Below, one piece after another: positions 46,320 to 62,085 of a DNA stretch of 64,000 nt (within the stretch, counting starts at the first letter, position 1; every line of letters starts with the position of its first letter). A program made the position numbers and the translations under genes. The DNA comes from Cocleimonas flava. GTDB lineage: Bacteria; Pseudomonadota; Gammaproteobacteria; Thiotrichales; Thiotrichaceae. The notes beneath the pieces were generated by a model. That model did no database searches and had not been told where the DNA came from. It saw nothing but the letters and a program-made list of their open reading frames with translations. The stretch is taken from positions 62,001 to 126,000 of the forward strand of contig NZ_SMFQ01000004.1 in NCBI RefSeq assembly GCF_004339015.1. The letters run 5' to 3'.

Positions 46320-46333
46320 TTGACGCAGATCAT
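46320..46333. promoter_or_regulatory. FNR/DNR-like box between ompW and nnrS
   Basis: TTGACGCAGATCAT matches 8 of the 10 fixed bases of TTGAT-N4-ATCAA. Both neighbours are known targets of FNR-family regulators in other bacteria (OmpW with FNR, NnrS with NO-responsive NnrR/DNR), which strengthens the reading. Confidence 0.45.
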
Positions 46334-46401
46334 ATATTGATGATTAAGCTCAATCTTAAATGGATAAGAGTAGAGTAAGATAGCTTCAAACATAAACAAG
46401 C

Positions 46402-46434
46402 AAAGGTCACCCCCCTACTTTGGGGCACTTTTTT
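46402..46434 (+). repeat. C6 interspersed repeat, copy 11, in nnrS leader
   Basis: AAAGGTC, ACCCCCCTACTTT, GGGGCAC and T6. It ends 32 bases before the nnrS start in a divergent gap, so in its terminator direction it lies in the probable nnrS leader rather than behind a gene. Confidence 0.9.
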
Positions 46435-46466
46435 ATCCCTATTTATTACATAGCTGTGAGCATAAG

Positions 46467-47645
46467 ATGCAAGTCCTGAATTTAAGCACTCCGAGTAATC
46501 CACCTAGATTCTCTTTTTTTGATTTAGGCTTTAGAGCCTTTTTTCTCGGCGCTGCTGCCTATGCAGTGTTATCCATTTTGATTTGGTTTTTTGTCTATTC
46601 GATGGGTTATCAAATGCCACAATCATCGATAACGACGATGCAGTGGCATGCGCATGAAATGATTTATGGTTACAGCATTGCTGTAATAGCAGGCTTTTTA
46701 TTAACCGCAACCAAAAACTGGACCGGTATCCAGACCCTTAATGGTAAACCTTTATTAGCGCTGGCATGCGTCTGGGTTGCGGCACGTATTACGCTATTCT
46801 TTGGGCAAATCGTGGCAGCTGCGGTATTAGATCTATTGTTTACCTTGTGGCTATCACAATCCATCGTCGCACCTATCATCAAAGCCAAACAATGGTCGCA
46901 ACTCGCCATTGTGATAAAACTTCTGCTGTTATTCGTGACAAACGCCCTGTTCTATTTAGGCGCTATGGGAATACTTGCTCAAGGTGTTAACTGGGGAATA
47001 TATGGTGGACTGTATCTCGTCATTGGTTTGATCCTGATGATGGCTCGAAGAGTGGTTCCATTCTTTATAGAACGCGGTGTAGATGAAACCGTTACCTTGA
47101 AAAATGTGAAATTTCTGGATCTCTCCAGTCTTGCTTTATTCCTGATTTTTATGGTATTGGAATTGGGCAATCTCAGCCCGCAGTTTTCCGCTTACAGCGC
47201 AATCCTGTTATTCATCGTCAATGCCATTCGCCTCGTAAACTGGCATACACCCGGGATTTGGAAAAAGCCTCTGTTGTGGAGCTTATACCTTGCGATCTGG
47301 TTTATCTGTGTCGGCTTTTTATTATTCGGTTTAAGTTACTTTCTGGGCATATCCAAATTTATCGCCATACATGCATTGTCTTACGCAGGTATCGGCGCAA
47401 TAACACTGGGTATGATGTCACGGGTAGGATTGGGTCATTCAGGCAGAGATGTGAGTAATCCACCGAAAGCTGTTGGAATTGCTTTAGGCATTTTGATTTT
47501 GGGTGCGATAGTTCGCGTCTTCTTCCCGTTGATTGATGCCAGCCATTATCTATTGTGGATCAGTATTTCTCAGGGTTTATGGATACTCGCATTTGTTACT
47601 TTTTTCATCACGTATTTGCCCCTGTTGACGAAAGCAAAAACCTAA
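46467..47645 (+). CDS. nnrS: NnrS family heme-copper membrane protein
   Basis: The 392-residue protein has about 12 membrane helices and the NnrS patterns FFDLGFRAFFLGAA, MQWHAHEMIYGYSIAVIAGFLLTA, MARRVVPFFIERG and MSRVGLGHSGR. NnrS proteins protect against nitrosative stress. The conserved His in QWHAHEM and HALSYAGIGA may bind heme. Monocistronic; divergent from ompW, with repeat copy 11 close upstream. Confidence 0.94.
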   Translation: MQVLNLSTPSNPPRFSFFDLGFRAFFLGAAAYAVLSILIWFFVYSMGYQMPQSSITTMQWHAHEMIYGYSIAVIAGFLLTATKNWTGIQTLNGKPLLALACVWVAARITLFFGQIVAAAVLDLLFTLWLSQSIVAPIIKAKQWSQLAIVIKLLLLFVTNALFYLGAMGILAQGVNWGIYGGLYLVIGLILMMARRVVPFFIERGVDETVTLKNVKFLDLSSLALFLIFMVLELGNLSPQFSAYSAILLFIVNAIRLVNWHTPGIWKKPLLWSLYLAIWFICVGFLLFGLSYFLGISKFIAIHALSYAGIGAITLGMMSRVGLGHSGRDVSNPPKAVGIALGILILGAIVRVFFPLIDASHYLLWISISQGLWILAFVTFFITYLPLLTKAKT

Positions 47646-47796: not shown

Positions 47797-48648
47797 CTAA
47801 CGTCGGATGATTTCTCTTACATTATCAGTCAGAAAACGCTGCTCACCTTTAAACACTTCCAGTAAACCCGGAGTTTGATGACCCTGTGCATTCACTTTCA
47901 GATGATAACTAAAGTTACCGTTGTTAAAGACATAGCGGTGGTTTCTACCCGTTCTGTCGACTTCTAAACGCCCGTCAGATAAAACGATATCTGGCTTTAC
48001 CGATGTAGGAGCATGTACCGGCCACGATGCGTAGCGTAAACGTCCATTACCAATATCATCCACACGAACGTGGTAGCGACTGGTTTTCCACTCAAGTACT
48101 GGCTGTGCGTAATTACTCACACTTCTATGCAATGAACTTCGGCCTCTTGGCGTTGAAGATCGAGATGGCTGCATCGATGAAGTCGCCTGAGCCACTAATT
48201 GTGGCTTACTTTGACCAAGACGGTTATTAGCAGGAGCACGGTTATACGTAGAGGCACCTTTATTCACAAACGTAGACGGTTGCTTTACTGACAGGATATT
48301 GCCATCGTGGTCCAGCCACACTAGTCCATCAAATAACATAATGCCGCGCCAGCCGACTGTATTCCAGTCTGTACGCGCGTCTGATGAAACGATAGATCGC
48401 AGCAGATTCTGGTCGAAGACTTCATCAAAACGATTTACAAATTCATACTCATTGTTAATCGCAGGTCGGTTTGATTTACTAATCAGTGGGTATGAAACCA
48501 TTTTTGCAATGCTGCCAGTGTTTCGACTTTTGAATGCTTCAATCACGGTTTGTACTTTGGCGACGTCTTTCTCTTCTACCGCAAATGCCTGCGGCGTTAA
48601 TATCGCCCACGAAAGTAATAGATAAGGTAAAGCCTTGGTGAATTTCAT
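47797..48648 (-). CDS. Secreted protein of unknown function
   Basis: The 283-residue protein has a signal peptide (cleaved after AFA, about residue 23). A first region of about 100 residues resembles small periplasmic domains with a variable repeat of Ile/Val and Asp (KVQTVIEAFKSRN, VNRFDEVFDQNLLRSIV, GLVWLDHDGNILSV). A low-complexity Ser/Arg/Gln linker (about 135-175) follows, then a C-terminal beta-rich region (VLEWKTSRYHVRVDDIGN, HRYVFNNGNFSYHLKVN). I do not recognise the family. Single gene. Confidence 0.75.
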   Translation of the reverse strand: MKFTKALPYLLLSWAILTPQAFAVEEKDVAKVQTVIEAFKSRNTGSIAKMVSYPLISKSNRPAINNEYEFVNRFDEVFDQNLLRSIVSSDARTDWNTVGWRGIMLFDGLVWLDHDGNILSVKQPSTFVNKGASTYNRAPANNRLGQSKPQLVAQATSSMQPSRSSTPRGRSSLHRSVSNYAQPVLEWKTSRYHVRVDDIGNGRLRYASWPVHAPTSVKPDIVLSDGRLEVDRTGRNHRYVFNNGNFSYHLKVNAQGHQTPGLLEVFKGEQRFLTDNVREIIRR

Positions 48649-49950: not shown

Positions 49951-50330
49951 GTTTCTATCGGTAAAAAATCCGGGTTTAGTGATTAACTTTTTGATGCAAT
50001 GAATTTAATTTTCACTTTATTTTAAAATATTTATTCAAATAATTTCAGGCTCTCTGCCATCTCATTTAGCAAGCTGTATAAATCAACTTAAAAATTATAT
50101 TTTATACAATAATTACAGCATCTTACGCTTAATAAACACAGACCAAAAATCACCATAAATTCTGAATTTACAAGATACATTCTGGAGGTATTTTAACGTT
50201 GCCAAAACAATTATTTTTAAAATAAATGAATCCAAAAAAAATAAAGCTGCGTTTCTACAACCAAGACACAGACTAAAAAGTCTTTTACGAAATAACAGTA
50301 AACATTAACTAAATTTTAAAGGTAAATATT
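49951..50330. promoter_or_regulatory. Leader region of small-peptide genes 1 and 2
   Basis: These 380 very AT-rich bases upstream of the first small-peptide gene contain no ORF. The conserved hairpin at 50262-50284 is shared with the third gene, together with a preceding TCCAAAAAAA tract. A long regulated leader is suggested. Confidence 0.55.
50262..50284 (+). promoter_or_regulatory. Conserved leader hairpin of small-peptide gene 1
   Basis: CAAGACACAGAC is followed by AAGTCTT, so that AAGAC pairs with GTCTT. The same element occurs at 51260-51283 upstream of the third peptide gene, at a similar distance (46 versus 57 bases from the ATG). Confidence 0.6.
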
Positions 50331-50531
50331 ATGAACATTAAAACAAAAGCAATCATAGCAAGCACTCTTCTAACAGCACTTTTTGCAGGTCAATCTGCAA
50401 TCGCCGGTCAAGCTAGTGACCTGGGTGTTTTCGCAACTCAAGCTGAAATAGCTGCAGCAAACGTAACTGAAAAAGTTAACTACGATGCACCAGCATTCAC
50501 TAACGAAGTGACAGTAAGCGGCAGAAAATAA
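50331..50531 (+). CDS. Small secreted peptide 1 of a paralogous trio
   Basis: The 66-residue precursor has a Sec signal peptide (charged MNIKTK, then IIASTLLTALFAGQSAIA), with cleavage predicted just before GQ. The mature part is about 40 residues and contains EKVNYDAP, shared with its two paralogues; the C-terminus (NEVTVSGRK) differs. No cysteines and no known family. AAAGG precedes the ATG. It shares a transcription unit with peptide 2, 84 bases downstream, and has the conserved leader hairpin. Confidence 0.8.
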   Translation: MNIKTKAIIASTLLTALFAGQSAIAGQASDLGVFATQAEIAAANVTEKVNYDAPAFTNEVTVSGRK

Positions 50532-50615
50532 ACGCTACTTACAACAAGTACTTTTATAAAAAATTATCCATTAATTCAAACGAATTAAATAACTACAAAA
50601 TACAGGAAACTAAAC

Positions 50616-50822
50616 ATGAACACTAAAGCAATCATCGCAAGCACATTACTTACTACTGCTCTAATCGCAGGTCAATCTGCAATCGCTGGTCAAAACGCAG
50701 ACGGCTTCTTCAACACTGAAGCATCAGCACAGACTACTGATAAAGTGAATTACTCAGCACCAAACGCTAAGATCAGTGCAGAATTAGACGCAGAACTTTT
50801 CCCACAGGGTGAAGGTCAATAG
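50616..50822 (+). CDS. Small secreted peptide 2
   Basis: The 68-residue precursor has a nearly identical signal peptide (IIASTLLTTALIAGQSAIA) and a short acidic mature peptide with DKVNYSAP and the C-terminal ISAELDAELFPQGEGQ, which is shared almost exactly with peptide 3. It has no Cys and a net negative charge. AGGAAA precedes the ATG. A strong terminator follows at 50867-50903. Function unknown. Confidence 0.82.
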   Translation: MNTKAIIASTLLTTALIAGQSAIAGQNADGFFNTEASAQTTDKVNYSAPNAKISAELDAELFPQGEGQ

Positions 50823-50866
50823 TCGCGAAATAAAGACTTAGTAAAACGAAAAAAACTCCCTCCTTT

Positions 50867-50903
50867 AAAAGCCCGGTATTTGAAAAAATACTGGGCTTTT
50901 TTT
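50867..50903 (+). terminator. Terminator after small-peptide genes 1 and 2
   Basis: AAAAGCCC and GTATT pair with AATAC and GGGCTTTTTTT around a short A-rich loop. No C6 core is present. Confidence 0.92.
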
Positions 50904-51340
50904 ATGCATGTTTAACATTTTTTCGCAAATATAGTGATTCACTATCCGGTTTTTCTGCACTTTTTTCTACGCTATTTTCTGCACTTCTATAACACTACAT
51001 TTAGGCAGTACTTAAATGCTGTGTTGCCTAAATAACCCTGTCTGGATTAATTGCTACATTAATCTAGAAAATAGTTTAAACATTACTTTTTAAACTATTT
51101 ACATGAAATACAAAAACCCCACTAATTAAAGTATAAGCCATTGTTTCATAATAGTTAAAACACTAATACAAACACTCAAACACCAAGATTGTTTTCTCGA
51201 TTTTTGAATATATTTCATTTTATTTTGATCCAAAAAAACAATTCATTCGTTATTACATACAAGACACAGACAATGTAAGTCTTCATCAAAAACACATGAC
51301 TTACATTACATTTACGAGACAAATACGGGATATAAATATT
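50904..51340. promoter_or_regulatory. Leader region of small-peptide gene 3
   Basis: These 437 AT-rich bases have no credible ORF. Near its end it has a CCAAAAAAA tract and the conserved hairpin at 51260-51283, as upstream of peptide 1. Confidence 0.55.
51260..51283 (+). promoter_or_regulatory. Conserved leader hairpin of small-peptide gene 3
   Basis: CAAGACACAGAC, a short spacer and AAGTCTT, the same element as at 50262-50284. Loop sequences differ while the arms are kept. Confidence 0.6.
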
Positions 51341-51553
51341 ATGAACACGAAAGCAAAAGTACTTTTAGCAAGCACACTTCTAACAGCTCTATTCGCAGGA
51401 CAATCTGCCATTGCAGGACAAGATGTAGACGGTGGATATTTCGAAGCTGAAGCAGCGACAAACGTCGCAGATAAAGTTAACTACTCAGCACCAAACGCAA
51501 CAATCAGTGCAGAACTTGATGCAGAGCTTTTCCCTTCATTTGAAGGTCAGTAA
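51341..51553 (+). CDS. Small secreted peptide 3
   Basis: The start is placed at the ATG at 51341 because the signal peptide begins there (MNTKAKVLLASTLLTALFAG) as in the paralogues; an upstream ATG adds 15 unrelated residues. The 70-residue precursor gives a mature peptide of about 44 residues with DKVNYSAP and the C-terminal ISAELDAELFPSFEGQ. It has its own leader with the conserved hairpin and its own terminator at 51586-51621. Function unknown; the duplication and high signal conservation suggest strong secretion. Confidence 0.82.
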   Translation: MNTKAKVLLASTLLTALFAGQSAIAGQDVDGGYFEAEAATNVADKVNYSAPNATISAELDAELFPSFEGQ

Positions 51554-51585
51554 AACGAAGCACAGCAAACACAGACTCTCCCTTG

Positions 51586-51621
51586 AGGCCCTTTACTTGA
51601 AAAAGTAAGGGGCTTTTTTTT
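51586..51621 (+). terminator. Terminator after small-peptide gene 3
   Basis: GGCCC-TTTACTT pairs with AAGTAA-GGGGC around GAAA and is followed by eight T. Confidence 0.9.
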
Positions 51622-61797: not shown

Positions 61798-62085
61798 TGA
61801 GTTGTGATGGAGCCACTCGCATCTTGTTAATAGAAGATTACTCCTACCTTTAAGAGACTTTCTAAATTTATACACTAATTTAAACAACACCAAGGTTTTA
61901 ATAACCAAACACAATCTTAGGTCATATATGTGCAGCGCCAAGCATCGCAAAAACGTTATACATTTCATAGTGAAGTACCAAATTGGTAATATGTCACATT
62001 TTCTAAACATAATTTTCCGCTATGATTAATATTGAACGACTTTTTAGAGCATAACTAACCGTTAATACGTTCAGGGAGAGAACAT

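Follow-up and report, generated by a model that had tools for sequence, protein, structure and literature searches.

Candidate stress-type units of small exported proteins in Cocleimonas flava: tandem arrays, promoter-like leaders, and 3'UTR tracts

Described systems closest to the window trio

Bacterial stress responses include small exported proteins, about which little is known. YbiJ and other DUF1471 proteins are small periplasmic proteins, and the product names of Escherichia coli yqjF and ybiJ are DoxX family and DUF1471, respectively. E. coli YhaJ, a quinol-responsive regulator, controls yqjF, ybiJ, yhaK, yhhW, ygiD, and yceP according to the excerpted text of PMC5031710. E. coli cpxP, a stress-induced protein transcript, has a 3'UTR that yields the sRNA CpxQ (excerpted text of PMC4817254). 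RpoE2-type sigma factors are represented by the Shewanella and Pseudomonas RpoE2/ChrR regulons, for which excerpts of PMC4336711 and PMC5507510 give the promoter TGATCC-N16-CGTA.

These systems were compared with a trio of small genes in the window (the whole 64,000-nt stretch of Cocleimonas flava DNA analyzed here, positions 62,001 to 126,000 of contig NZ_SMFQ01000004.1) and with the paralogues of the trio, which had either of two kinds of control DNA (type I, including the window, and type II): (i) the Cocleimonas and YhaJ/YbiJ systems shared a small exported protein with paralogues and a LysR-controlled set with DoxX-family, 4,5-DOPA dioxygenase, and pirin-type proteins, as far as the excerpts of PMC5031710 describe the latter system, but the trio proteins did not match the DUF1471/YhcN-BhsA-McbA profile (Pfam, E ≤ 10), their mature part had about 43 aa, the Cocleimonas regulator was YafC-like, and the type I copies of the window had another promoter; (ii) cpxP–CpxQ, as excerpted in PMC4817254, resembled the locus in a stress-type transcript pairing an exported small protein with a candidate 3'UTR sRNA before a terminator, but the Cocleimonas tract was of anti-Shine-Dalgarno type, its promoter was ECF-like instead of Cpx, and no homology is claimed; and (iii) the ATCC-N16-CGT architecture of the RpoE2/ChrR promoters in the excerpts of PMC4336711 and PMC5507510 was also found here, the copy of unit 2 reading TGATCC-N16-CGTTAT, but TGATCC occurred in one of nine type I leaders and CGTA in one of nine, never in the same leader, so that none had the exact excerpted consensus. 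By analogy, YbiJ would hold in the YhaJ regulon the place of the Cocleimonas peptides, and this parallel suggests that small envelope proteins recur in quinone defence, with unrelated families in different bacteria.

The trio, its paralogues, and their neighbors

In the source genome (10 contigs, 4.49 Mb), the trio was located on the forward strand and was composed of small secreted protein 1 (50331..50531; 66 aa; tail NEVTVSGRK), small secreted protein 2 (50616..50822; 68 aa; tail ISAELDAELFPQGEGQ), and small secreted protein 3 (51341..51553; 70 aa; tail ISAELDAELFPSFEGQ), each supported by ORF, profile, and dN/dS. The ORF lister put the start of gene 3 at an earlier ATG (51296; 85 aa), and the start was set at 51341 because this position yields the family N-terminus. 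The first-pass annotation had described three proteins of these lengths with near-identical secretion signals, which the ORFs bear out, and its motif (D/E)KVNY(D/S)AP (EKVNYDAP in protein 1, DKVNYSAP in proteins 2 and 3) and the tail ISAELDAELFPxxEGQ in two proteins were correct. Mature products of about 40–45 residues, acidic and Cys-free, had also been claimed, in agreement with the 41, 44, and 45 aa, pI values of 4.51, 4.05, and 4.05, and zero Cys found here, with the cut placed by eye after AxA and the secretion signals likewise judged by eye. A reading of the C-terminal GRK as an animal-type amidation signal was dropped; relatives end in GRL, GRI, GNR, or VNR. Genes 1 and 2, with an 84-nt gap in which no terminator was found, were probably one co-transcribed unit (unit 1), while gene 3 was a unit of its own (unit 2), and a terminator closed each of the two.

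Genome-wide, a degenerate motif pattern matched seven times, each time in a small-protein gene of this kind (reversed control: 0), and a profile of seven sequences identified 11 paralogues (E 7.8e-37 to 4.6e-25); three further profile matches in this genome (E 0.23 to 1.2) were not members. The paralogues were arranged in four tandem arrays: (i) array W of the window with three genes, neighbored by TauE/SafE and a methyltransferase; (ii) array A (C4, 88.7 kb) with two genes, neighbored by a LysR gene, a DUF6508 gene, and an ABC-type ATPase; (iii) array B (C4, 114.4 kb) with three genes, neighbored by a fumarase-like lyase, DoxX, and 4,5-DOPA dioxygenase; and (iv) array C (C1, 16.0 kb) with three genes, neighbored by a lytic transglycosylase and LptE/leucyl-tRNA synthetase. 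Genome G007 harbored seven members in three arrays (W, B, and C) whose neighbors matched those of the source genome; the first gene of its W-type array (C21, L050 9004-9177) was cut by a TAG shortly after a KVRYDA motif, and the family tail ran on in frame past this TAG. Diverged forms were found in three draft genus assemblies: G011 (two), G008 (two), and G003 (four). In G011 and G008, the array was flanked by an msrA-like gene (assigned by eye) on one side and a NUDIX gene on the other, and the G008 locus also had a DUF599 gene; no array was found at the msrA-like locus of G000 and G007. The 26 members in Cocleimonas were thus spread over 5 of 12 genus genomes, and the homologues whose absence from related genomes, together with absent transcription, had been named in the first-pass annotation as refuting its proposal are present; a convincing member was absent in the other seven, several of which are incomplete drafts.

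The search was also extended beyond the genus. A wider profile, applied to 63 family genomes, had matches at E ≤ 0.05 in 17, and those beyond the five member-carrying genomes amounted to 15 places (best E 2.1e-4). Ten of the 15 were inspected, together with three weak matches in G000 and G007: the matches in G002 and G006 included further small exported proteins whose mature parts differed, and the remaining inspected ones had, by reading, at most the signal part in common. The class-wide profile on 369 genomes recovered the source genome and three weak matches (E 1e-4 to 6e-4), none a member on inspection, and no relative was found among plasmids and phages (queried with protein 1 only) or viral contigs (queried with alignment A1). 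Across the 63 family genomes, the 369 class genomes, and these three collections, no convincing member was found outside Cocleimonas. As a side observation, a 95-aa exported His/Met-rich protein (L127 5218-5505, G007:C9) contained KVNY and ended in EELFPSGRR, recalling both family tails, and the genes around it looked copper-related by eye.

The trio proteins had no Pfam match above cut-off in a scan at E ≤ 10 (one sub-cutoff match, CooC_C, E 0.057) and no NCBIfam match at E ≤ 10; six proteins searched against PHROGs gave best E values of 0.041 to 0.16 (noise level), the PDB profile search gave a single match (E 0.84), and Rfam at a permissive threshold gave 10 matches, each under the gathering score. 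No literature on the family was found, KVNYDAP was present in no text searched, and none of the Cocleimonas papers listed, as represented by titles and abstract beginnings, dealt with these genes. The family is undescribed in the libraries and print searched. The proposal of an undescribed secreted family with regulated expression therefore stands on these library nulls, the genus homologues, and the promoter-like leaders (see below), while the roles suggested with it have so far gained no support.

The 11 paralogues of the source genome displayed 80% identity in the signal part versus 55% in the mature part, and all mature parts were acidic and of 41–47 aa, with Cys in 0 of 11. Over 55 own-paralogue pairs, pooled dN/dS was lower in the signal part (0.19; pS/pN 0.43/0.12) than in the mature part (0.33; pS/pN 0.60/0.31); dN/dS is below 1, and therefore the selection is that of coding genes. 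All 18 members of the two large genomes retained the motif KV[NRS]Y. AlphaFold2 gave a low-confidence model with a pLDDT of 54 from 10 sequences, which fits a poor alignment as well as disorder, and the mature proteins are perhaps flexible or disordered.

One of the suggested roles was that of secreted signaling or bacteriocin-like peptides, in which a variable mature part behind a constant leader would act on other cells. Class II bacteriocins and microcins are marked by a double-glycine leader or by a dedicated exporter plus immunity gene. The tandem arrays, the better conserved signal part, and the fast change of the mature part between species would suit this role, but the signal is Sec-type by eye and not a double-glycine leader, the mature part has the pooled dN/dS and the invariant motif given above, and the neighbors differ from array to array. 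A partner gene conserved across arrays was sought in ORF lists by eye and by Pfam on 20 neighbor proteins, and the arrays were not seen to have an immunity, exporter, or receptor gene in common there; the different neighbors, only part of which were library-scanned, argue against toxin-immunity, exporter-dependent, and receptor-ligand systems. Signaling or bacteriocin-like action is accordingly judged quite improbable.

Codon adaptation was fairly high: the CAI of the 11 paralogues was 0.605–0.697, the median being 0.537 for 44 window ORFs and 0.70 for 29 ribosomal-region ORFs. With respect to the regulated, abundant expression proposed earlier, these values are no more than suggestive, since pieces of ordinary genes that are equally short attain them in 1–15% of draws. 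The same codon adaptation, the many copies, and the confinement to one genus within the genomes searched would also fit structural peptides of an outer surface, sheath, or matrix, but the regulatory elements are shared with stress-type genes (see below), seven of 12 genus genomes have no convincing member, and the peptides are devoid of Cys and showed no surface anchor; we consider a structural role improbable, and no test result spoke for the matrix or spacer protein named in the first-pass annotation.

Control DNA of type I and type II units

Type I was composed of nine units: W1-W2, W3, and C in the source genome, two in G007, one each in G011 and G008, and two in G003. Their leaders, which in the window are long as first described and also conserved, had the order TTGAATCC-AAAAAAAATA-N6-CGTTTCTA or a close variant, mostly a hairpin, and the ribosome site. 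ATC[CT]-N16-CGT[TA], with the two boxes at fixed spacing that mark an ECF promoter, was found in all nine. On the forward strand of the window, unit 1 had the ECF-sigma-like putative promoter GAATCC-N16-CGTT (50228..50253; pattern and model matches, function inferred) and the 5' leader hairpin AGACT-aaaa-AGTCT (50270..50283; hairpin script), while unit 2 had the putative promoter GATCC-N16-CGTT (51227..51251; E 3.0e-14 in the R1 leader model, which includes this copy) and the 5' leader hairpin AGAC...GTCT (51268..51282; read from the sequence, the script and the leader fold favoring another pairing for this copy). In array C (L048 8754-9022), the distance from the start of the type I leader to the first gene was about 270 nt versus the usual 105 nt or so, as after an insertion or the loss of a first gene.

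The pattern search with ≤3 mismatches in 63 family genomes gave seven matches in five genomes, all at arrays (control: 0), and missed two of the nine leaders (W3, i.e., the unit-2 copy, and one G003 unit). An earlier 27-base pattern had two exact matches in the source genome, both at arrays; with three mismatches, it had two matches there versus two in the control. The loose pattern ATC[CT]-N16-CGT[AT] occurred 10 times in the window on both strands, and therefore the weight of the promoter element lies in its conservation. The hairpins were evaluated over 11 leaders (the nine of type I plus the CmcJ and G006 leaders, see below): none of 2000 mononucleotide shuffles reached their mean score, and in 8 of 11 leaders the best hairpin was no more than 4 nt from the median start, a positional agreement equaled by 127 of 2000 shuffles; these statistics are support and not proof, because the leader sequences are related.

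The R1 model, applied to 12 genus genomes, had 25 matches listed at E ≤ 1: its own nine members (3e-22 to 8e-11), one fragment of array j, and 15 others, the best at E 2.8e-4, four of which were inspected. Absence from this search weighs little, because at most 150 first-look candidates were scored per genome. The match at G003:C144 (2.8e-4) preceded a CmcJ/NvfI-family gene and had promoter and hairpin; that at G000:C2 (0.04) preceded the gene of an ECF sigma factor whose neighbor was weakly RskA-like, and no G007 counterpart of this match was among the matches listed; that at G000:C3 (0.16) fell within a long ORF and was meaningless. The match at G006:C214 (0.26) was the leader of a tandem pair (L128 2652-3309) encoding small exported proteins with mature parts unrelated to the family (79 and 129 aa, with FEQVNAENGYDxAFxNGWV-like stretches); the promoter and hairpin of this pair were type I-like and the 3' tract described below was absent, which suggests protein cargo swapped under similar control.

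Seven ECF genes were checked for a type I-like motif within 350 nt upstream, and two had one: (i) TTGAATCC-N17-CGTAAT about 80 nt before the start of one ECF gene, whose neighbor weakly matched ChrR, and (ii) TTGCATCT-N15-CGTATA before the ECF gene with the weakly RskA-like neighbor. The other five showed no such motif upstream, and no clear ChrR orthologue was found (best 22.8 bits, cut-off 124.5). These two genes are candidate cognate sigma factors, linked to the type I units through short motifs whose spacings were 17 and 15.

Arrays A and B were of type II. One leader was common to array A and the two promoters of array B, and that of array B was present also in G007. The palindrome GTTC-N9-GAAC or the like, a T-N11-A LysR box, was found in six of six type II promoters scanned, so that arrays A and B, and not the window trio, carried the mark of LysR-controlled units; the pattern used, [GA][AT]TC-N9-GA[AT][CT], is loose and also fits two of three E. 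coli YhaJ-regulated promoters. The LysR protein was YafC-like (38% identity, 172 bits to YafC); with 29 bits to YhaJ, it was rejected as a YhaJ orthologue. The R2 model of the type II leader had 40 matches listed at E ≤ 1 in 12 genomes, five being its own members, and the best nine of the 40 were assigned, the other 31 being at E 0.006 or worse. The best beyond its own five was a LysR promoter in G007 (E 4e-11) with no array there, and further matches were at pirin operons of G007 (8e-9), G008 (1e-7), and the source genome (3e-4). A pirin–cytochrome b561–YceI operon behind this LysR-box leader was found in three genus genomes (L191 1239-3453, L189, and L190), and the G008 pirin operon was divergent from the LysR gene itself. 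In G007, an N-ethylmaleimide-reductase-like gene was located nearby. As a gene set, these genes together with the DoxX and dioxygenase genes of array B (see below) parallel the E. coli YhaJ regulon. The window units are of type I, and therefore the quinone link reaches them only through their paralogues.

The DoxX and 4,5-DOPA dioxygenase genes lay 71 nt behind gene 3 of array B, with no terminator found between. Bufferins are copper-binding RiPPs with a DoxX-like HvfX partner and a Cys-containing core. The array B DoxX matched HvfX below cut-off (32.6 bits, cut-off 80), which would be in line with metal-binding peptides of this kind, but none of the 11 own mature parts contains the Cys of such a core and the trio proteins have no Pfam or NCBIfam match to such a family, making the bufferin reading highly implausible.

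Overall, the control DNA is conserved better than the mature peptides, and it alone places a library-absent family in two candidate regulons.

The 3'UTR tract and the proposed role of the units

Terminators, called strong in the first-pass annotation, are present after genes 2 and 3 (50871 and 51588). On the forward strand, the 3'UTR of unit 1 contained the CU-rich anti-Shine-Dalgarno tract CTCCCTCCTTT (50856..50866; predicted single-stranded) followed by the terminator at 50867..50903, called by the terminator script and not listed by a separate built-in scan, and the 3'UTR of unit 2 contained the CU-rich anti-Shine-Dalgarno tract CTCTCCCTT (51576..51584) followed by the terminator at 51585..51621, called by both; the separate scan also listed a weak site within gene 1.

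The comparison was extended to all type I units. In eight of the nine, a CU-rich tract (such as CTCCCTCC, CTCTCCCT, or CTCTCTCC) lay before the last terminator; it was predicted to be single-stranded and was complementary to Shine-Dalgarno sequences. The tract was missing in type I unit k of G003 and near the G006 pair. It preceded none of 175 other terminators called by the script in the window and 15 further stretches (opposite-strand calls inside array regions are excluded from the 175, and none of those has the tract), and none of the three type II terminators (after A2, B2, and gB2). Because the nine units fall, by eye, into about four descent groups and do not count as independent, no p-value is given for the tract. 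In the type I 3'UTRs, the flanks had diverged and the tract was kept, a pattern to be expected of an sRNA seed; a conserved single-stranded seed before a Rho-independent terminator, the mark of 3'UTR-derived sRNAs, is thus found in eight of nine units. Pairing of the 3' tract with the unit's own ribosome site was dropped, holding by eye for unit 1 only.

Leader and 3' tract are kept even in species whose mature peptides hardly align, as they would be if RNA were the main product and the ORFs were its carriers, but coding selection is clear and the peptide is retained in type II arrays, which lack the tract, and we regard an RNA-only role as very unlikely.

The reading we favor, tentatively and with slightly less than even confidence, is that the trio represents two stand-alone stress-type units of Cocleimonas-specific small exported envelope proteins. 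An ECF-type sigma factor would turn on the type I units under envelope or oxidative stress, and the LysR regulator would turn on the type II units under quinone or electrophile stress; the Sec pathway would export the acidic, Cys-free, and perhaps disordered product of 41–47 aa to the periplasm, where large amounts may protect envelope proteins or take up damage, a role likened to those of YbiJ, BhsA, and CpxP with no relatedness implied. The exported proteins are best read as envelope-protective because they are small, acidic, and Cys-free, have two stress-type controls and many copies, and show fairly high codon adaptation; they may act as holdase, as sacrificial target, or as membrane or porin modulator. 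In type I units, the CU-rich tract plus terminator may be released as an sRNA repressing other mRNAs, a second prediction separable from the peptide role. Their combination into a genus-specific dual-output stress module, in which an ECF-driven mRNA would give two tiny exported shield proteins plus a conserved 3' anti-Shine-Dalgarno sRNA and cargo may swap under a constant control frame, is put forward as a rather doubtful extension.

Further observations were made around the arrays. At 47797-48648, the window encoded a protein of 283 aa whose N-terminus is signal-like and for which Pfam gave no match at E ≤ 0.001, and a relative adjoined the array in G007 (L050 10658-11512). The string PQSRGV was common to small ORFs near gene ends (window 46330-46503, L046 7537-7692, and L048 8216-8464), and SRGV was also found at window 47710 and L051 3471; these small ORFs are probably spurious, hinting at a dispersed short DNA repeat.
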